From contig NZ_JBFRXN010000002.1 of the NCBI RefSeq assembly GCF_040947875.1, positions 3,162,001 to 3,226,000 on the forward strand: a stretch of DNA of 64,000 nucleotides, in the 5' to 3' direction. Below are positions 13,060-39,655 of this stretch, one piece after another. Source of the stretch: Pseudomonas sp. MYb118. Lineage in GTDB: Bacteria > Pseudomonadota > Gammaproteobacteria > Pseudomonadales > Pseudomonadaceae. The stretch's first letter is position 1; each line of letters starts with the position of its first letter. Position numbers and translations under genes: made by a program. The notes beneath the pieces are model-generated. The model was not told the origin of the DNA and made no database searches. It saw only the letters and a program-made list of their open reading frames with translations.

Positions 13060-13572
13060 CAACATCACTGCGCCTGACACACCGCCATCGCGAGCAGGCT
13101 CGCTCCCACAATGGCCCGCGCCGAACACAAATCCCGGGACACCCCGAACCCTGTAGGAGCGAGCTTGCTCGCGATGAGGCCCGCTAATCCAACATCGCTG
13201 GCGCCTGACACACCGCCATCGCGGGCAAGCCCGCTCCCACAATGGCCCGCGCCGAACACAAATCCCGGGACACCCCGAACCCTGTAGGAGCGAGCTTGCT
13301 CGCGATGAGGCCCGCTAATCCAACATCGCTGGCGCCTGACACACCGCCATCGCGGGCAAGCCCGCTCCCACAGTGGCCGGCGCCGGACACAAAATCCGGG
13401 ACACCCCGAAACCTGTGGGAGCGAGCTTGCTCGCGATGAGGCCCGCCCATCCAACATTGCTGCGCCTGACATACCGCCATCGCGAGCAAGCCCGCTCCCA
13501 CAGTGGTCCGCGCCGGACGCAAAAACCGGGACACCTCGAACCCTGTGGGAGCGAGCCTGCTCGCGATAGCGG
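13060..13572. repeat. Tandem array of four REPIN units (about 131-bp period)
   Basis: REP arms beginning CTGTAGGAGC or CTGTGGGAGC recur at 13151, 13282, 13413 and 13543, each paired with an inverted arm about 65 bases before. The inter-arm DNA is also repeated (for example CAACATCGCTGGCGCCTGAC and CCGGGACACC), so whole units were duplicated. Units 1 and 2 are almost identical and units 3 and 4 more diverged. The rest of the gap, 13573-13700, holds no gene; a purine-rich AAGAGGTACC before ATG 13701 serves the CoA transferase. Confidence 0.9.
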
Positions 13573-14894: not shown

Positions 14895-15817
14895 TTACAG
14901 ACTTTTCGCAAACCCTGATCGTCCAGGAGGTTTCGCCCCGCGACGGCCTGCAGATCGAACCGACCTGGGTGGAAACCACCGACAAAATCGCGCTGATTGA
15001 TCAACTGTCGTTGGCCGGTTTCAGCCGCATCGAAGCCGGTTCGTTCGTCTCGCCCAAGGCCATCCCGGCCCTGCGTGATGGCGAAGCGGTGTTCACCGGC
15101 ATCGCCCGGCAAACGGGGGTGATCTACGTCGCCCTGATCCCCAACCTCAAGGGCGCGCAACGGGCCCTGGCGGCAGGCGCTGACGAGCTGAACCTGGTGA
15201 TGTCGGCGAGCCAGACGCACAACCTGGCGAACATGCGCATGCGCTGCGAAGACTCGTTGGCGGCGTTCGGCGAAATCGTCCAGTTCGCAGGTAACACCCC
15301 GGTGCGCCTCAACGGCAGCATCGCCACCACGTTCGGCTGCCCCTTCGAAGGCCGGATTGATGAAGACCGTGTGCTGCAAATCGTCGACGCCTATCAGGAG
15401 CTGGGCATCACCGGCATCACCCTGGCCGACACCACCGGCATGGCCAACCCGCGTCAGGTCGATCACTTGGTGCGGCGGGTGCTGCAACGGGTGGCCGTCG
15501 CGGACCTGACCCTGCATTTCCACAACACCCGCGGCCTGGGCCTGTGCAACGTGCTGGCCGCCTACGAGGCCGGTGCCAGGCGCTTCGACGCCGCCCTCGG
15601 TGGCCTGGGTGGCTGCCCGTTTGCGCCGGGTGCCTCGGGCAACATTTGCAGTGAAGACCTGGTGAACCTGTGCGACGAAGTCGGCATCCCCACCGGTATC
15701 GACCTGCCGCTGCTGCTCAAGTTGTCCCGCGGCCTGCCCGCACTGCTGGGCCACGAGGTCCCGGGGCAACTGGCCAAGGCCGGACGCAACTGCGACCTGC
15801 ACCCGATACCGTCCTGA
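14891..15817 (+). CDS. Hydroxymethylglutaryl-CoA lyase family protein
   Basis: 308 aa; start ATG overlaps the CoA-transferase stop (ATGA). DRE-TIM barrel metallolyase: VQEVSPRDGLQIEP carries the metal and catalytic Arg-Asp, LHFHNTRGLG the metal-binding histidines, and GGLGGCPFAPGASGN the catalytic cysteine C242. Family members cleave 3-hydroxy-3-methylglutaryl-CoA or similar 3-hydroxyacyl-CoAs to acetyl-CoA (or pyruvate) plus a ketoacid. It is not next to the leucine-degradation (liu) genes, so it may act on a different branched 3-hydroxy acid. Confidence 0.88.
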   Translation: MITDFSQTLIVQEVSPRDGLQIEPTWVETTDKIALIDQLSLAGFSRIEAGSFVSPKAIPALRDGEAVFTGIARQTGVIYVALIPNLKGAQRALAAGADELNLVMSASQTHNLANMRMRCEDSLAAFGEIVQFAGNTPVRLNGSIATTFGCPFEGRIDEDRVLQIVDAYQELGITGITLADTTGMANPRQVDHLVRRVLQRVAVADLTLHFHNTRGLGLCNVLAAYEAGARRFDAALGGLGGCPFAPGASGNICSEDLVNLCDEVGIPTGIDLPLLLKLSRGLPALLGHEVPGQLAKAGRNCDLHPIPS

Positions 15818-15894
15818 TCGACGGCGCCGAAAGCCACACAACCAGACAACAAAAACAATCGGACACCCACGGGAAGTCCGCCTGGAGAAACACT

Positions 15895-17226
15895 ATGAGC
15901 CTCAATGTCATGGAGGCGGGTGCGAACCCGTCCGTCAATCACGACGAAGAAAAAGCCCTGGTCAGCAAGGTCGCCTGGCGCCTGATGCCGCTGATCATGG
16001 TCTGCTACCTGTTCGCGTTCTTCGATCGCATCAACATCAGTTTCGCCAAGTTCCAGTTGCAGGCTGACCTGAGCCTCAGCGACACCGCCTATGGCCTGGG
16101 CGCCGGGCTGTTCGTGGTCGGCTACGTGATCTTCGAAGTGCCAAGCAACATGATGCTGTACAAGGTCGGTGCGCGGCGCTGGATCGCGCGCATCATGATG
16201 TCGTGGGGGCTGGCCACCGCGCTGATGGTGTTCGTCACCAGCGAATGGCAGTTCTACGCGTTGCGCTTCCTGATCGGCGCGATGGAGGCCGGTTTCGCCC
16301 CAGGCGTCCTGTATTACCTGACGCTGTGGTTCCCGCAGCATTATCGCGGGCGCATCACGTCCATGCTGTTCCTTGCCTCCGCGTTTGCCGGTCTGGTCGG
16401 CGCGCCGTTCTCCGGCCTGGTGTTGCAGCATCTGGATGGCGTGATGCAGATGCGCGGATGGCACTGGCTGTTCCTGCTCGGCGGCGTGCCGTGCATCGGC
16501 CTGGGGGTGCTGGTGCTGACCCTGCTCAAGGACCGCATCGAAGACGCCCACTGGCTGACGCCGGCGGAGAAAACCCTGCTGGCCAGCCGCATTGCCCACC
16601 ATGAGCCACACAAGAGCGGCGGCTCGTTGCTCGCGGCGCTGCGCATCCCCGGCTTCCTGACCCTGGGCCTGATCTACTTCCTGATCCAGGTGGCGTCCTA
16701 TGGCCTGAACTTCTGGGCGCCGCAACTGATCCGCAGCGCCGGCACCGAGAGCCCGGTGATGATCGGCCTGCTGACGGCGATTCCGTACATCTGCGGGGCG
16801 ATCAGCATGGTGGTGATTGGCCGACTGTCCGACGCCACCGGCGAACGGCGCAAATTCGTCGCCGGCCTGGTCGCGGTGGGCGCCCTGGGCTTCTTCAGCG
16901 CCGGGATCTTCGCCAGCCACACCACCTTCCTGATCATCGCACTGGGCCTGCTCGGCGCCGGGATCATCGCCTCCATCCCGAGCTTCTGGACCCTGCCGCC
17001 GAAACTGCTGGCCGGGGCAGGTGCCGGCGCGGCGGGCGGCATCGCGGTGATCAACACCCTGGGCCAGTTCGGCGGCATCGTCAGCCCGGTCATGGTCGGG
17101 CGGATCAAGGACCTGACCGGCAGCACCACCCCGGCGCTGTACGTCATCGGCCTGTGCGCCCTGATCGCCGTCGCCCTGCTGATGTGGGGCCTGCCGCAGA
17201 AGTTGCGTACCCTCGATAAGATCTAG
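15895..17226 (+). CDS. MFS transporter, anion:cation symporter type
   Basis: 443 aa from ATG 15895 with CTGGAGAAA upstream. Twelve predicted helices. CYLFAFFDRINISFAKFQLQ at the start of helix 1 and the loop RWIARIMMSWG are typical of the ACS family (phthalate, tartrate, hexuronate and related carboxylates). It follows the CoA-transferase/lyase pair by 77 bases on the same strand, so it is likely the uptake system for the carboxylate those enzymes degrade. Confidence 0.88.
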   Translation: MSLNVMEAGANPSVNHDEEKALVSKVAWRLMPLIMVCYLFAFFDRINISFAKFQLQADLSLSDTAYGLGAGLFVVGYVIFEVPSNMMLYKVGARRWIARIMMSWGLATALMVFVTSEWQFYALRFLIGAMEAGFAPGVLYYLTLWFPQHYRGRITSMLFLASAFAGLVGAPFSGLVLQHLDGVMQMRGWHWLFLLGGVPCIGLGVLVLTLLKDRIEDAHWLTPAEKTLLASRIAHHEPHKSGGSLLAALRIPGFLTLGLIYFLIQVASYGLNFWAPQLIRSAGTESPVMIGLLTAIPYICGAISMVVIGRLSDATGERRKFVAGLVAVGALGFFSAGIFASHTTFLIIALGLLGAGIIASIPSFWTLPPKLLAGAGAGAAGGIAVINTLGQFGGIVSPVMVGRIKDLTGSTTPALYVIGLCALIAVALLMWGLPQKLRTLDKI

Positions 17227-17241
17227 GCACGCACACATCCC

Positions 17242-17332
17242 CTGTAGGAGCGAGCTTGCTCGCGATGGCGGAAAGTCAGTCAAAACACACATTGGCTGAT
17301 CCACCGCTTTCGCGAGCAAGCCCGCTCCCACA
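17242..17332. repeat. REPIN
   Basis: Inverted pair GTAGGAGCGAGCTTGCTCGC / GCGAGCAAGCCCGCTCCCAC with about 40 bases between, directly after the MFS gene. Confidence 0.9.
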
Positions 17333-17373
17333 AGATCAAAAGCGGCCACCCCCAACCCTTCGAGGTCATACGC

Positions 17374-17790
17374 GTGCTCACCAGCCTCAACCACCTGACC
17401 CTCGCCGTCACCGACCTCAATCGCAGCGTGGCGTTCTATCGCGACCTGTTGCAACTGCAACTCCACGCCACCTGGGACAAGGGTGCCTACCTGTCGTTGC
17501 CCGGCCTGTGGTTATGCCTTTCCCACGATCCCCTGCGCAGCGCCGAACCCGCCGCCGACTACACCCATTACGCCTTTACTTGCAGTGAGCCGGATTTCCC
17601 GTCATTCGTGGCCCGTCTGCAGGCCGGCAACGTCGATCAGTGGCGCGACAACCACAGTGAGGGCGCCTCGTACTATTTCCTCGACCCGGATGGCCACAAG
17701 CTCGAGGTCCATGTGGGTGACCTGGCTTCCCGGCTGGCGGCCTGCCGGCAGGAACCGTATGCGGGGATGAAGTTCTTCGACGAGCAGTGA
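17374..17790 (+). CDS. fosA: FosA-type fosfomycin thiol transferase
   Basis: 138 aa with a GTG start at 17374 ([15 protein letters not shown]) and GAGG at 17362-17365. A vicinal-oxygen-chelate fold metalloenzyme that adds glutathione to fosfomycin using Mn2+ and K+. The metal ligands H7, H65 (DYTHYAF) and E111 (HKLEVHVGD) are present, as are the K+-loop and substrate residues S95, S99, Y101 and R120. The lysine that contacts the drug in P. aeruginosa FosA (K90) is replaced by R91 in QWRDNHSEG. It is a chromosomal, intrinsic gene with normal local composition, and no mobile element is next to it. Confidence 0.9.
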
Positions 17791-29610: not shown

Positions 29611-31377
29611 TCAGGCCCGCTCAGCCAGATAAGCCCGCCACCCCCCCAGATGGCTGATGTTCACCGCCCCCTCCAAGCCATACTGCTCGCAGATAAACCC
29701 GCTCTCCCAGCGGCCATCGGCCAACTGCACCTTGCCCAACCCCAGCGGTGCCGGAATGCCGGTAAGGAACGAGCCCAACTCGCTGCTCGGCAGCTCCCAG
29801 ACCTCCACGGCAATCGCCACGCCGCCGTCCTTGACCCGCACCATGCCCGGGCGAAACGGCGGGCCGCCGGCCAGGGCATACAACTGGTAGTCGGGCGAGC
29901 TGGAGGTGGTTTCAACCAGCGTCGCGCCGCGCCGCTTGAGTTGCCAGTTCAACGCCAGCCCATCCAGGTGCGCACCGCAAACCACCAACCGCGCGCGATC
30001 ATGGCGGGCGACGGTGGTAGGTGTCGACGCTGGCTGCTGGAACGCATCGGCCACGCTGAGCAGATACTGATCGGTGAACGCCCGGCCAAACAGGGTCACG
30101 CCCCACGGCAAGCCGTTGCCCATGAAACCGCTGGGCACCGCGACGGCGGCGTAGTCGAGCAGGTTCATGAAGTTGGTGTAGTAGCCCAGTTCCGAGTTGC
30201 GCAGGACCGGCTCGGCTTCCAGTTCAGCCAGAGTGACAGGCCGGCCGATGGTCGGGGTGACCACGCAATCGAGTCCTTCCATCGCCTGGTCGCACAGGGC
30301 CTTGAGCGCTTGCAGCCGATACTGCGCGCGGAAGGTTTGCACGCCGCTGACGGCCGGGGCCTTGGCCAGCACCGCCTGGATCACCGGCAGCACCGCTTGC
30401 GGATTGTGCTCCATCAACTCGCCCGCGACGCTGTAGCGTTCGGCCACCCAGGGGCCCTCATAGAGCAGGCGCGCCGCCTCGAAAAACGGCGACATGTCCA
30501 ACTCGACCGCCTCACCTCCCAGGGCCTTGAGCCGAGCGACCGCCTGGGCGAGCAGCCCCGACCCTTCGCTGCAACCGAAGAACTCCAGGTCCTGCGTGCG
30601 GGGTACGCCAAAGCGGAACGGCCGCGGTGTGCCGAACGCCGAGCCGTCGTTCCACATCGGGTTGCGGCGGCTGTACTCGTCGCGCGGGTCGAAGTGCGCG
30701 GTCAGCGCCAGCAACTGGCTGGCCTCGCGGGCGGTGGCGGTGAAGGTGGTCACGCAGTCCAGCGTGCGGCAGGCCGGCAGCACGCCAGCAGTGGAGATCA
30801 GGCCTTTGCTGGCTTTCATGCCCACCAGGTTGTTCAGCGCGGCGGGCACGCGCCCGGAGCCGGCGGTGTCGGTGCCCAGCGCGAAGCTGGCGACACCCAG
30901 CGCCACCGCCAGCGATGAGCCGGCGCTGGAGCCACCCGACGGGTACTCCGGCAACACGCTATTGGGGCACGCGCCATACGGCGAGCGACTACCGTTGAGG
31001 CCGGTGGCGAACTGGTCGAGGTTGGTCTTGCCCAGTGGGATCGCCCCCAGCGCCAGCAGTTGCTCGACGATGGTCGCCGATTGTGCCGGCACGTAGGCGA
31101 ACGCCGGGCAGGCTGCCGTGGTCGGGATGCCTGCCAGGTCGATGTTGTCCTTGATCGCGAACGGCACGCCATACAGCGGCAGGCTGTCGAGGTCGCGACC
31201 GTCGAGTGCGGCGAGGTACGGTTCCAGTTCCTGCACGCTGAGCAGGTGGATGAACAGGTGGTAGTCCGGGTTCAGCGCGGCGGCTTTTTCCCGCAGCGCC
31301 AGCAGCAGTTTGCGCGGTGTGGTGGTGCCGTCGCGGTAGGCTGCGCGCAGGGTGTCGAGGTGCAGGTCGATGTTCAT
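29611..31377 (-). CDS. atzF: Allophanate hydrolase
   Basis: 588 aa from the ATG at 31377. An N-terminal amidase-signature domain (about 1-430) has the Ser-cisSer-Lys triad: the serine loop GGSSAGSSLAVALGV and GTDTAGSGRVPAA. A C-terminal domain (about 465-588; LVVCGAHLDGLALNWQLKRR) is specific to AtzF/DUR1-type allophanate hydrolases. It hydrolyses allophanate to two NH3 and two CO2. It is the last gene of the guanidine/urea carboxylase operon, 24 bases after the carboxylase. Confidence 0.93.
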   Translation of the reverse strand: MNIDLHLDTLRAAYRDGTTTPRKLLLALREKAAALNPDYHLFIHLLSVQELEPYLAALDGRDLDSLPLYGVPFAIKDNIDLAGIPTTAACPAFAYVPAQSATIVEQLLALGAIPLGKTNLDQFATGLNGSRSPYGACPNSVLPEYPSGGSSAGSSLAVALGVASFALGTDTAGSGRVPAALNNLVGMKASKGLISTAGVLPACRTLDCVTTFTATAREASQLLALTAHFDPRDEYSRRNPMWNDGSAFGTPRPFRFGVPRTQDLEFFGCSEGSGLLAQAVARLKALGGEAVELDMSPFFEAARLLYEGPWVAERYSVAGELMEHNPQAVLPVIQAVLAKAPAVSGVQTFRAQYRLQALKALCDQAMEGLDCVVTPTIGRPVTLAELEAEPVLRNSELGYYTNFMNLLDYAAVAVPSGFMGNGLPWGVTLFGRAFTDQYLLSVADAFQQPASTPTTVARHDRARLVVCGAHLDGLALNWQLKRRGATLVETTSSSPDYQLYALAGGPPFRPGMVRVKDGGVAIAVEVWELPSSELGSFLTGIPAPLGLGKVQLADGRWESGFICEQYGLEGAVNISHLGGWRAYLAERA

Positions 31378-31401
31378 GAAGTCGGTCCTTATCAAATGGG
31401 T

Positions 31402-34400
31402 TCAGTCGAGTGCCAGCACCACGACACGCTGTCCGGCGCGCACCGCCGAACCCGGTTGCACGCGGATCTCGCGCACCACGCCAGCCGTCGGTGCGAGCAA
31501 TGGAATTTCCATCTTCATCGACTCCAGGATCACCAGCACATCGCCGGCGGCGACGCGGCTGCCGGGCTGCACCTGGACTTGCCAGAGGTTGCCGGCGATG
31601 TGGCTGTCGACGCTCATTTCGCCAGTGGCCAGCGGTGCTTCTTCGCTGGCTTCGACCAGCGCTTCGTCACTCTCGAAATGCGCCTGGCCGCTGGCGATCC
31701 AGCGTTCGCGTTCGGCGTTGAACGCGCCTTGTTGCTGGGCACGGAAGGCGCCGATGGTCTCGGCTTCCCGGGCGAGGAAGGCCTGGTATTCGGCGAGGTT
31801 CAACTGGCTATGTTCGATGTTCAGGTCGAAACGCCCAAGGGGGAAATCGCGACGGATGCGCAGCAGTTCGTCGGCGCTCACCGGGTAGAAGCGGATCTGG
31901 TCGAAGAAGCGCAACAGCCACGGCTTGCCATCGAATGCGGCGACGTCGCGGTAGCGGTTCCACATCTGCAGGGTGCGACCGACGAACTGATAACCGCCGG
32001 GGCCTTCCATGCCGTACACGCACATGTAGGCGCCACCGATGCCCACCGAGTTCTCTGCGGTCCAGGTGCGGGCCGGGTTGTATTTGGTGGTTACCAGGCG
32101 ATGGCGCGGGTCCAGCGGGGTGGCCACCGGCGCACCGAGGTACACGTCGCCCAGGCCCATCACCAGGTAGCTGGCGTCGAACACGGTGCGTTGCACTTCA
32201 TCGAGGTTGGGCAGGTCGTTGATGCGGCGGATGAACTCCAGGTTGCTCGGGCACCAGGGGGCGTCCTTGCGCACGGTGGTCATGTATTTCTCGATCGCCA
32301 ACTGGCAGGCCGGGTCATCCCAGGACAGCGGCAGGTGGACGATGCGCGACGGCACTTGCAGGTCTTTGGCAGCGCACACCGCGTCCCACTCACCGGCGAC
32401 GATGCCCAGCAGGTCGGCCAGCGGCAGTTGTTCAGGCTGGTAGTGCACCTGCAGCGAACGGATGCCCGGCGTCAGGTCGATCACGCCGTGCAGGTGTTTG
32501 CTTTCCAGCGCCTGCATCAAGGCGTGGGCGCGAAAGCGCAGGACCAGGTCGAGCTCGGGGGCGCCGATTTCCAGCAGCAGGTGGGTGTCACCGGACAGGC
32601 GTGCGACGAGGCGGGTGTCGGCTTGGCCGATGTCCAACACCACGGGCGACTCAATCTTCTTCTGTGAACCACCAACCTGTGGGAGCGAGCCTGCTCGCGA
32701 TTGCGGTGCAACAGGCAAAGATGTGTTAACTGACACACCGCCATCGCGAGCAAGCTCGCTCCTACAGGTGGTGTTCCAGTTCAGGGCCAGGGTGCGGGCG
32801 GTGGCCAGATCCACCGGCAAAAACTGCACCTTGTCCCCCGCCTTGAGTTGCCCCAACTGCCAGAGGTCCGCCTCGATCACCGTCACCGGGCACACGAAGC
32901 CACCCAGGCTCGGCCCATCGGGGCCGAGGATCACCGGCATGTCGCCGGTGAAATCCACCGCGCCAATCGCGTACGGGTTGTCGTGGATATTCGAAGGATG
33001 CAGGCCCGCTTCGCCGCCGTCGGCGCGCACCCACTCCGGCTTCGGCCCGATCAGGCGCACGCCGGTGCGGCTGGAGTTGAAATGCACTTCCCACTGGGTG
33101 TCGAAGAAGGTGCCGATGTAATTTTCGGTGAAGTACTCGGGCGCGCCGTGGGGGCCATAGATCACCCGGATCTGCCGCACGGCCGGCAAGTCGCCGAGCT
33201 GTTCTTCAGGCAGCTGTTGCCCGGAGTTGCGATCATTCAGGCCCGGCACGTGCAACACATCGCCGGCGCGCAGGGCCCGCCCGCCGTGGCCGCCGAACTG
33301 GCCGAGGGTAAAGGTGCTTTTGCTGCCCAGGTAGTCCGGCACTTGCAGGCCACCGCGCAGGCACAGGTAGCTGCGCGCGCCGGCGCCGGCAATGGTGCCC
33401 AGGCTCAAGGTAGCGCCTGCCGGGATCAGCAGGGCGCGGTTCATCGCCACCGCTTCGCCGTCGAGCGTCAACGGGATCCGAGCGCCGGTCACCGCCACCA
33501 CGGCCTCGCAATTGAAGCGCAGCAGCGGCCCGCTCATGGTGATTTCCAGCGCGGCGGCGCCTTCTTCATTGCCCAGCAAACGGTTGCCCAGGCGCAGCGC
33601 ACGGCTGTCCATCGGCCCCGACGGCGGCACGCCCACGGCCCAGTAACCGAGGCGGCCGGGGTAGTCCTGAATGCTGGTCTGGGTGCCGGCGCTGAGCACT
33701 TCGAAGGTGTTGGCCTGATAGACCAGATGCTCCAGGCAACGGGTCCACGGCTGGCCGCTGGCGAACGGCGTATCGAGCACAATCTGGCGCAGGTAGTCGC
33801 GGTTGGTTTCCACGCCGTACAACACGCTGTCACCGAGTGCCTGGTGCAGGTCGGCCCGGGCTTGCTCGCGGGTCGGCGCCCAGCAGATGACCTTGGCGAT
33901 CATCGGGTCGAAGTAGGGCGGGATCTCGCAACCGGCCTCGACCCAGGTGTCGATGCGCAACCGTTGGCCATCGGCCGCAGGAAAATCGACGGCCGTGAGC
34001 AGGCCTGGGCTCGGCTGGAAATCGCGCCCCGGATCTTCGGCGTACAGGCGTGCCTGGATCGCATGGCCGCAGGCTTTCAAGCCCTGGCTCAGCACGCTCA
34101 GTGGCAGCAGGTCACCGGCCGCCAGCTCGACCATCCAGCGCACCAGGTCCACGCCCCATACCTGCTCGGTGACTCCGTGCTCCACTTGTAGGCGGGTGTT
34201 CACTTCCAGGAAGTAGAAGCGCTGGCCTTCGCTGTCGAAGACGAACTCCACGGTACCGGCGCTGCGGTAATTGACCGCCTTGGCCAGTTTGATCGCCGCC
34301 GCGCACAGCTCGTCGGCCATGCCTTCGGGCAGGTTCGGCGCCGGGGTTTCCTCGAGCACTTTCTGGTTGCGCCGTTGCACCGAACAGTCGCGTACGCCCA

Positions 34401-35067
34401 GGGCGATCACCTCGCCGCGACCGTCGCCGAACACCTGCACTTCCAGGTGACGGGCGCGCTGGATGTACTTCTCGATGAACACACCGGCGTCGCTGAAGTT
34501 GTTTTGGCCCAGGCGCTTCACCGCGTCGAAGGATTCGCTCAGCTCGGCGGCGTTGCGGCACACGCGCATGCCGATGCCACCACCGCCGGCGGTGCTCTTG
34601 AGCATCACCGGGTAACCGACCTGCTCACCGGCACTGAGCGCCGCGTCGAGGCTGTCGAGCAATTCGGTGCCTTCGAGCATCGGCACGCCGTGTTGTTTGG
34701 CCAGGGCGCGGGCGGTGTGCTTTAGGCCGAATACCCGCAACTGTTCTGGCGTCGGGCCGATGAAGGCCACGCCTGCCGCTTCGCAGGCCTCGGCGAACGC
34801 GGCGTTTTCCGAGAGGAAACCGTAGCCGGGGTGGATCGCCGTGGCGCCGCTGGCCTTGGCGATGGCGAGGATCTTGTCCACCGCCAGGTAGGTGCCGGCC
34901 GCCGCGCCTTCGCCCAGGCTGTGGGCTTCATCGGCTTGCAGGATGTGCAGGCTGGCGGCATCGGCTTCGGAATACACCGCCACGCCACCGACGTGCAAAT
35001 CGTGCAGGGTGCGCAGGATGCGGCAGGCAATGGCGCCACGGTTGGCAATCAGGACTTTTTCGAACAT
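31402..35067 (-). CDS. Biotin-dependent guanidine/urea carboxylase, carrying an in-frame REPIN
   Basis: 1221 aa. Order: biotin carboxylase/ATP-grasp (about 1-450; GGGGIGMRVCRN glycine loop), AHS2/KipA-type carboxyltransferase part (about 455-765; GTQTSIQDYPGRLGYWAVGV), AHS1/KipI-type part (about 810-1030), and a C-terminal biotinyl domain with ESMKME (biotinyl K1185). Between the two carboxyltransferase halves, residues about 767-797 ([10 protein letters not shown] to SLPQVGG) are encoded by a REPIN. Annotated family members are 'urea carboxylases', but those in operons with DUF1989 genes and a ykkC riboswitch act on guanidine, giving carboxyguanidine. Apart from the insertion the frame is intact, so activity is likely if the linker tolerates 31 extra residues. 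Confidence 0.92.
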   Translation of the reverse strand: MFEKVLIANRGAIACRILRTLHDLHVGGVAVYSEADAASLHILQADEAHSLGEGAAAGTYLAVDKILAIAKASGATAIHPGYGFLSENAAFAEACEAAGVAFIGPTPEQLRVFGLKHTARALAKQHGVPMLEGTELLDSLDAALSAGEQVGYPVMLKSTAGGGGIGMRVCRNAAELSESFDAVKRLGQNNFSDAGVFIEKYIQRARHLEVQVFGDGRGEVIALGVRDCSVQRRNQKVLEETPAPNLPEGMADELCAAAIKLAKAVNYRSAGTVEFVFDSEGQRFYFLEVNTRLQVEHGVTEQVWGVDLVRWMVELAAGDLLPLSVLSQGLKACGHAIQARLYAEDPGRDFQPSPGLLTAVDFPAADGQRLRIDTWVEAGCEIPPYFDPMIAKVICWAPTREQARADLHQALGDSVLYGVETNRDYLRQIVLDTPFASGQPWTRCLEHLVYQANTFEVLSAGTQTSIQDYPGRLGYWAVGVPPSGPMDSRALRLGNRLLGNEEGAAALEITMSGPLLRFNCEAVVAVTGARIPLTLDGEAVAMNRALLIPAGATLSLGTIAGAGARSYLCLRGGLQVPDYLGSKSTFTLGQFGGHGGRALRAGDVLHVPGLNDRNSGQQLPEEQLGDLPAVRQIRVIYGPHGAPEYFTENYIGTFFDTQWEVHFNSSRTGVRLIGPKPEWVRADGGEAGLHPSNIHDNPYAIGAVDFTGDMPVILGPDGPSLGGFVCPVTVIEADLWQLGQLKAGDKVQFLPVDLATARTLALNWNTTCRSELARDGGVSVNTSLPVAPQSRAGSLPQVGGSQKKIESPVVLDIGQADTRLVARLSGDTHLLLEIGAPELDLVLRFRAHALMQALESKHLHGVIDLTPGIRSLQVHYQPEQLPLADLLGIVAGEWDAVCAAKDLQVPSRIVHLPLSWDDPACQLAIEKYMTTVRKDAPWCPSNLEFIRRINDLPNLDEVQRTVFDASYLVMGLGDVYLGAPVATPLDPRHRLVTTKYNPARTWTAENSVGIGGAYMCVYGMEGPGGYQFVGRTLQMWNRYRDVAAFDGKPWLLRFFDQIRFYPVSADELLRIRRDFPLGRFDLNIEHSQLNLAEYQAFLAREAETIGAFRAQQQGAFNAERERWIASGQAHFESDEALVEASEEAPLATGEMSVDSHIAGNLWQVQVQPGSRVAAGDVLVILESMKMEIPLLAPTAGVVREIRVQPGSAVRAGQRVVVLALD
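32676..32768. repeat. REPIN inside the carboxylase coding sequence
   Basis: CCTGTGGGAGCGAGCCTGCTC at the left and GCGAGCAAGCTCGCTCCTAC at the right form a standard inverted REP pair, 93 bases = 31 codons. No stop codon occurs in the carboxylase frame across it. Confidence 0.93.
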
Positions 35068-35369
35068 GGCATAACCCCCGGAGGCGATTGCACATCAGCC
35101 TCGACCTGGGTTGCGGGCCGTCCCGCAGTTTTTCGATCAGCGCCGGGGTCGTCCTCGGCGGGGAAACTCACAATGAGCACCTGAATCTGCTCTTTGTGGG
35201 AGCGAGCCTGCTCGCGATGGTGTATCAGGTACAAAAATGTTGGCTGACACTCCATCGCGAGCAGGCTCGCTCCCACAGAGGGAAAGGGCGCGGAGTGCTT
35301 ATTTTTTGAGGCACTGCCCCGATCTGGCCTGGCACAGCGCAAACAACCACCGCCGCAAGCGCATCAGTT
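35068..35369. other. 302-bp gap between carboxylase and DUF1989 gene, with REPIN
   Basis: A REPIN occupies 35195-35278 (GTGGGAGCGAGCCTGCTCGC and its inverse, spacer about 35 bases). No ORF or promoter is recognised in the rest. The operon probably reads through; the hairpins could change mRNA stability between the upstream transporter/deiminase part and the downstream carboxylase/hydrolase part. Confidence 0.8.
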
Positions 35370-39501: not shown

Positions 39502-39600
39502 GCTTGTCTCCCGGGCTTTTGTCCCGCCGTGTAACCTCAACTGGAGGTCGCCAACTCTCGGACCAGCCACTCGTATCAACGAGCCGGAACCCTAGTCGGC
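39502..39600 (-). ncRNA. Guanidine-I (ykkC) riboswitch
   Basis: Minus-strand conserved blocks in the right order and spacing: CTAGGGTTCCG (39595-39585), CTGGTCCGAGAG (39566-39555), ACACGGCGGGAC (39532-39521) and AAAAGCCCGGGAGAC (39520-39506). These are the hallmark ykkC aptamer sequences. It lies 57 bases upstream of the binding-protein ATG. The downstream TGTCCGCC (about 39470) is complementary to the aptamer's GGCGGGACA with one mismatch, a possible expression switch (inference). Class I aptamers turn expression on when guanidine binds. Confidence 0.93.
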
Positions 39601-39655
39601 CATTTGCAAATTGTGGTGCCGCGAACCTGTGATGACTCCTGCACGGCTTTGCTAA

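Follow-up and report, generated by a model that had tools for sequence, protein, structure and literature searches.

The stretch joining the two carboxyltransferase lobes of guanidine carboxylase in Pseudomonas looks, from comparison of sequences, like a recurrent landing site for translated mobile DNA. The window, a 64,000 nt stretch of the Pseudomonas sp. MYb118 genome that was analysed here, contains one occupant of this site, a REPIN inserted in frame (Table 1), whilst the same linker elsewhere in the genus harbours palindromic repeats of several kinds, which differ in type and orientation even between closely related species.

A REPIN within a conserved reading frame

The element consists of two inverted arms of 34 nt, which display 91 % complementarity and are separated by a gap of 27 nt. 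Each arm contains the 20-mer REP core GGGAGCGAGCNTGCTCGCGA, with 0 mismatches in one and 1 in the other; the window as a whole has 37 sites for this core at ≤3 mismatches, against 0.05 expected from shuffling. Two inverted REPs that flank a spacer and can fold into a hairpin are the hallmark of a REPIN, and by sequence and structure the element is classed as such. REPINs are, however, characteristically extragenic, and this one sits within a conserved ORF; the intragenic place is the anomaly.

A prior sequence-only reading of this DNA had claimed an inverted REP pair inside the carboxylase coding sequence that keeps the frame, adds no stop and lies between the carboxyltransferase halves. All of this is upheld: the ORF is open across the element, and as Pfam places CT_A_B upstream and CT_C_D downstream of it, the residues it encodes lie in the linker. 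Nor is there a frameshift that would make the gene a pseudogene, as the reading frame is intact. The same reading had envisaged two stable hairpins; the predicted mRNA fold is instead a single long hairpin of −81.8 kcal/mol (shuffles −45.2, SD 4.1; 0/200 as low; z −9.0). Its statement that REPINs elsewhere in the window are intergenic holds as far as tested; just one further REP pair (17239–17336) was flagged as potentially genic and in frame, and it falls between the genes at 15670–17226 and 17374–17790. The window additionally contains an array of eight REP cores, with alternating orientation and regular spacing, at 13088–13566.

Table 1. Location of the element, its host gene and associated operon features within the window
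Feature	Position	Strand	Basis
REPIN inserted in frame, residues about 767–798	32675..32769	.	Inverted repeat and REP core counts
REPIN arm with GGGAGCGAGCCTGCTCGCGA core at 32681–32700	32675..32708	+	Inverted repeat, core counts
REPIN arm with AGGAGCGAGCTTGCTCGCGA core at 32744–32763	32736..32769	-	Inverted repeat, core counts
Guanidine carboxylase, 1221 aa; biotin carboxylase, CT_A_B, CT_C_D and biotinyl domains	31402..35067	-	Pfam, TIGR02712 urea_carbox, Asp705, operon guanidine riboswitches
Interdomain linker as extracted, residues 766–805, 120 nt	32653..32772	-	Anchored tblastn extraction
CT_A_B domain, upstream lobe, residues 478–749	32821..33636	-	Pfam PF02626; coordinates converted from residues
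CT_C_D domain, downstream lobe, residues 823–1042	31942..32601	-	Pfam PF02682; coordinates converted from residues
Guanidine-II riboswitch, just upstream of carboxylase	35113..35160	-	Rfam RF01068, 45 bits
Guanidine-I riboswitch, upstream end of operon	39506–39606	-	Riboswitch match
Allophanate hydrolase, next operon gene	29611..31395	-	TIGR02713, 774.7 bits

The enzyme and its operon

The carboxylase scores 1886 bits against TIGR02712 (cut-off 1304) and possesses the domain set of urea-carboxylase-type enzymes. Homologues of UAAP1 and UAAP2 are encoded upstream, and the operon includes both a Guanidine-II riboswitch and an allophanate hydrolase gene, as befits a guanidine carboxylase. This arrangement is ordinary, since the same riboswitch split is described in enterobacteria, where Guanidine-I accompanies importer and deaminase genes and Guanidine-II accompanies carboxylase and allophanate hydrolase (PMC12186494). 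The same source reports that an aspartate replaces asparagine at the substrate-determining site of guanidine carboxylase. A search for an Asp/Asn column returned none under a strict rule, and residues 349 and 705 under a relaxed one. Asp705 is present in 8/8 Pseudomonas sequences compared (including that of the window) and 26/26 outgroup sequences, with Asn at this position in 11/13 paralogues and, by alignment, in yeast 3va7; residue 705 may be the published substrate-determining position. With regard to overall architecture, the CT_A_B part matches PxpC over residues 456–759, and the yeast enzymes 3va7 and 5i8i align with the carboxylase over nearly their full length. In 5-oxoprolinase, the related lobes are separate proteins, PxpB and PxpC.

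REPs of the host genome

High copy number is a further mark of REPINs, and the host genome contains 2195 exact copies of the 19-mer core GGAGCGAGCNTGCTCGCGA, with 0 for the reversed control. It also encodes two PF01797 (Y1-transposase) proteins that exceed the Pfam cut-off, the gene for each having REP pairs on both sides. Because of these flanking REPs, both are taken to be RAYTs rather than other Y1 transposases, and they would thereby provide the REP-flanked RAYT genes associated with REPINs. The best other REPIN of the same genome is 86 % identical to the element, versus 82 % for the best orthologous linker, although this comparison alone is weak, since the own-genome sample was enriched for similar peptides.

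A census of 624 kb of this genome (28 chosen 20 kb stretches plus the window), which detects only elements that keep the frame of a gene, yielded 123 REP clusters, of which 119 were evaluated. Five were flagged, comprising the carboxylase, one intergenic cluster and three single cores with 4 mismatches that by eye appear to be chance; the carboxylase is therefore the sole in-frame REP cluster inside a gene (1/119). Separately, 150 of 1017 candidate REP-peptide matches were scored, and 14 had open frames of at least 300 aa, including the carboxylase. The other 13, 12 of which were also inspected individually, were rejected as in-frame genic REPs, as none combines coding-like codon use on both sides with an open frame through the element. 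A search of large proteins with the REP peptide gave two matches amongst nine candidates, namely the protein encoded in the window and a single urea carboxylase; since such a search needs shared words, it is no evidence that other proteins of this kind do not exist. Outside the carboxylase, own-genome REPINs of 81 nt are open in the relevant frame in 104 of 124 readings.

Occupation of the linker across the genus

Amongst 199 sampled genomes of the genus (G numbers), 108 possess an orthologue at ≥78 % identity, 15 of these as split matches. Together with 80 named loci, three loci of a second genus in the same family and two repeats, these make up 193 loci (L numbers) with 167 distinct linkers; some named loci derive from the same assemblies as sampled genomes, and identical linkers were counted once. 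Between fixed anchors, linkers range from 0 to 885 nt (0 to 295 residues), with a median of 93, and all but 1 of the 167 have a length that is a multiple of three. Repeats are generally known as a source of misassembly, yet with the frame open in the window and 166/167 linkers from many assemblies in multiples of three, there is a negligible chance that faulty assembly produced the insertion or that it marks a pseudogene.

An inverted-repeat score of ≥12 (calculated on the first 300 nt only for linkers over 300 nt) is reached by 122/167 linkers, compared with 0/13 paralogue and 0/26 outgroup linkers. Repeat cores are found at 0–1 mismatch in 135/167 (112 exact, 23 with one); at up to three mismatches 145/167 match one of 15 motifs and 22/167 match none, counts that are not independent of the linkers, as the motifs were written after these had been read. 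For random control segments from the flanks, matches number 0/1640 at ≤1 mismatch and 61/1640 at up to three, whilst for paralogue and outgroup linkers combined they number 0/39 at ≤1 and 5/39 at three. Of 71 typed elements, 56 have matching arm types, against 17.9 expected if the two arms were independent.

The sequence-only reading had expected the inserted residues to be absent in relatives. This is not the case, as a palindromic-repeat motif occurs at the same place in 38/38 of the next-best matching genomes (L002–L039), albeit only at 3 and 2 mismatches in L034 and L036, respectively, and often of a different type from that of the window. Thus, the interpretation survives as regards an in-frame REPIN in the linker of a guanidine-type carboxylase, but not as regards a single odd insertion. 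It had also named, as counter-evidence, homologues without a REP that have the same residues; no repeat-less linker was seen with the residues of the window's insert.

Several linkers are of unusual composition. Tandem arrays of translated REP units, in frame and up to 295 residues, are found in L099 (G094; 885 nt), L095 and L256 (348 nt) and L094 (321 nt). In L289–L291, from another genus of the family, linkers of 261–303 nt contain, in a single reading frame, both REP-like repeats and repeats of the CTCTCCC type. A short TCGAATCGTCGCACCG-like insert (or its complement) appears by eye to lie inside one REP arm, in frame, in L009, L011, L013, L182, L205 and L231. L100 (G175) alone has a linker length not divisible by three, and its gene falls into two open frames, of 864 and 471 aa.

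Kinds of occupant

Six classes were defined by stem, under names that are specific to this analysis: REP (116 linkers), CTCTCCC (9), TTTAGCCGCGA (7), GGCGAGGG (6), TAGCCCGGATG (5) and GACCGG (2). A description of these as six unrelated classes was dropped, because TTTAGCCGCGA, GGCGAGGG and GACCGG carry GTGG or GTAG ends in the manner of REPs, and may be distant members of that family. Accordingly, at least three kinds without evident similarity are counted: REP-like, TAGCCCGGATG and CTCTCCC.

The linker repeats mostly belong to the host's own families, with reversed controls being 0 in the host copy counts. TAGCCCGGATGNAATCCGGG is found in 16/80 genomes and in none of the other 64, with the five hosts of TAGCCCGGATG linkers containing 55, 77, 105, 126 and 58 copies. 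GGAGCTGGCNTGCCAGCGA is found in 42/80 genomes; nine of the ten searched hosts of CTGG linkers have 31–499 copies and G078 only 8, with three further hosts of CTGG-labelled linkers lying outside this count. GGCGAGGGRGCTTGCYCCCG is found in 35/80 genomes, and the hosts of full GGCGAGGG elements, G083 and G171, have 412 and 203 copies, respectively. The exact CTCTCCC pattern CTCTCCCNNNNGGGAGAGGG reaches 122–318 copies in the other genus (three genomes), with 13 in G113, 8 in G063 and 0 in G054 and G148; the linkers of the last two contain related repeats.

Turnover on the gene tree

On a FastTree tree built from the coding flanks, with the linker left out, the six classes require 18 changes over 135 labelled tips, or 25 over 154 tips when motif-less linkers are counted, whilst the three broad kinds require 9 and REP core type 42 over 109 tips. 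In 50 label shuffles the values were at least 24 (vs 18), 41 (vs 25) and 50 (vs 42 for core type). Class labels follow the tree in part, yet change often. Of 51 sister pairs, eight have elements of different classes and a further 19 differ by REP core, a count that leaves out one pair differing only between two CTCTCCC-class motifs (28/51 with that pair). The sisters L062 and L079, with flanks 94.2 % identical and a support of 100, have a TAGCCCGGATG and a REP-like element, respectively; L020 and L206, with flanks 95.4 % identical and a support of 100, have a GGCGAGGG and a REP element. In both L020 and L023 a REP-like tail, GCTCCCACAGG, is retained behind the other element.

Opposite orientations of a shared loop

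A loop of 31 nt recurs in 36 distinct linkers, a weak match in L094 being left out; it has one orientation in 25 and the opposite in 11, and the arms around it switch amongst CGAG, CTGG and CGGG types. Depending on the strictness of matching, 4–5 changes of orientation are needed on the tree. With L094 included, the six changes over 37 linkers equal the smallest value of 200 shuffles (mean 9.6), and thus orientation follows the tree only weakly. Inversion is clearest when L225 (P. fluorescens PS833) is compared with L227 (P. lini CC269): the two have the same arms, and loops that are identical at 30/31 positions after inverting one, with flanks 93.1 % identical and a support of 100. An inverted loop of 43 nt, at 98 %, is similarly found in L185 and L226, where the arms differ.

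Of 39 genomes searched, 13 have the 31 nt loop at the carboxylase, four of them inverted relative to the gene, and in 11 of the 13 a second copy (≤2 mismatches) was not found. In most cases it is therefore unlikely that a second copy was reinserted in the opposite direction, whilst a donor copy that was later lost may account for some opposite-orientation loops. In G039 the loop is absent at the carboxylase and 13 related copies occur elsewhere.

The shared loop with its switching arms, together with the lack of a second copy in those 11 genomes, is what would be expected had one REPIN entered the ancestral gene and been inherited vertically, with arm differences arising by gene conversion with genomic REPs and little true replacement. 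Such a history is unlikely for the site as a whole, as the dissimilar REP-like, TAGCCCGGATG and CTCTCCC elements need their nine changes and REP scars lie beside another element; the sisters L062 and L079, joined with full support, refute it as a complete explanation. For a sub-lineage, vertical inheritance of one REPIN can hold on the present sequences.

Were the element inverted, 78 of 83 two-arm linkers would stay open, versus 54.5 expected from shuffled loops. This bidirectional openness was rejected as a sign of selection, since z drops to 3.3, 1.4 and 1.1 when related loops are grouped into 26, 7 and 4 clusters, respectively, and 81 nt REPINs elsewhere in the own genome also give 88/104.

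The paralogue and a putative role for the element

A paralogue of the carboxylase (~54 % identity; L109, L110 and L292–L302) has a linker of exactly 81 nt, with no element, in 13/13 cases, and outgroup linkers (n=26) are 48–84 nt. Ten of the 13 paralogue genomes also carry the guanidine-type gene, and in 7/10 its linker has a repeat motif. Tolerance alone falls short of explaining an element-free paralogue linker in 13/13; perhaps this linker packs against its enzyme.

One may ask whether the element is instead kept for a putative role, with its hairpin slowing ribosomes for lobe folding or tuning the ratio of carboxylase to allophanate hydrolase, or with the palindrome binding a protein. The strength of the predicted hairpin and the 112 linkers with an exact motif would suit such a role, as would loop identity, which for loops of opposite orientation (0.82) matches that within each orientation (0.83 and 0.85) and so speaks against the peptide as the conserved entity. 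Set against this, 22 linkers have no motif, linkers of 0–54 nt exist, and the freshness of the elements is accounted for by replacement. Slow loop evolution (0.83 vs 0.64 at third positions) was also discarded as a sign of function, as similarity had guided the choice of loops and values of up to 0.889 occur in 10-codon windows of the flanks. On balance, maintenance for function is an unlikely explanation.

Discussion

The explanation favoured here, and held to be probable, is that a dispensable tether tolerates in-frame insertions, whilst its occupant is replaced, given new arms and flipped through REPIN mobility and recombination. The stretch joining CT_A_B and CT_C_D in Pseudomonas guanidine carboxylase would be dispensable because both lobes presumably fold on their own, and stop-free insertions in multiples of three should therefore be tolerated. 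REPINs suit such a linker, since the length of the 81 nt kind is divisible by three and most of its readings in the relevant frame lack stops. The linker would be entered by elements from repeat families of the host itself, after which arms may be swapped for other types, loops inverted between inverted arms and whole elements replaced, sometimes with scars left behind. These events are seen as between-species patterns; at the molecular level, a RAYT may act on single strands, the template may be switched or the arms may recombine. Selection would then chiefly remove frame-breaking events, leaving the window's REPIN as the present occupant of its species and the added linker peptide probably neutral. 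The observations themselves comprise recurrent occupation, frame keeping, repeats that are mostly abundant in the host, type switching and opposite orientations between species. A more elaborate proposal, that the element is a live, reversible coding switch whose loop flips within populations to give two linker peptides (GARSDTASTSS-like and EEVDAVSDLAPS-like), with the palindrome rather than the peptide being maintained, is improbable.

In-frame REPs inside ORFs are already known. For GTAG/CGTC REPs, monomers and dimers lie wholly within ORFs, with dimers or groups adding 20–30 residues; flexible linkers or loops are proposed as tolerant places, and different REPs occur at about one recB site in two Xanthomonas species (PMC3733652). 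The carboxylase resembles these cases in having REPs within an ORF and in the proposed tolerance of a linker, but differs in that one site of one enzyme is affected genus-wide, by several classes; sister species may differ in the type present, and loops occur inverted. The words 'urea' and 'carboxylase' are absent from the main text of PMC3733652, the intragenic cases of which are listed in its supplement. Rickettsia palindromic elements are likewise translated in frame, in genes that are likely functional, and are spread over many genes (PMC10969869, PMC3733652), whereas here the carboxylase is the only case in the own-genome sample; moreover, its element matches Pseudomonas REPs, with the likeness to the Rickettsia elements drawn from descriptions. 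REPINs of strain SBW25 are symmetrical REP doublets with a spacer, linked to RAYT genes and with excision seen in reads, and only 14 16-mers of 1067 occurrences of the three commonest overlap genes (PMC3116915). The doublet structure is alike, but the window's REPIN differs in being inside conserved coding sequence; the word 'inversion' is absent from the main text of PMC3116915. Inverted repeats within the protein-coding genes of Nematomorpha mitochondria (PMC6649704) concern different genomes and different elements. In the titles and abstract openings of the matches listed, supplements aside, no report was found of REPs in urea or guanidine carboxylase, or of REPIN loop inversion. Amongst these matches, what is apparently new is recurrent capture and in-place inversion within one linker.

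The guanidine carboxylase linker is a clear exception to the rule of extragenic REPINs, and preserves, at a single position of a protein, a natural archive of the many times that mobile palindromes were inserted in frame, replaced or inverted. REPIN turnover, arm exchange and loop inversion thereby become measurable against a gene tree, and the 0 to 295 residues seen amount to a test of how much extra sequence the interdomain tether of a biotin carboxylase accepts. The contrast between the guanidine-type enzyme and its paralogue is the best lead to why the former is the target.
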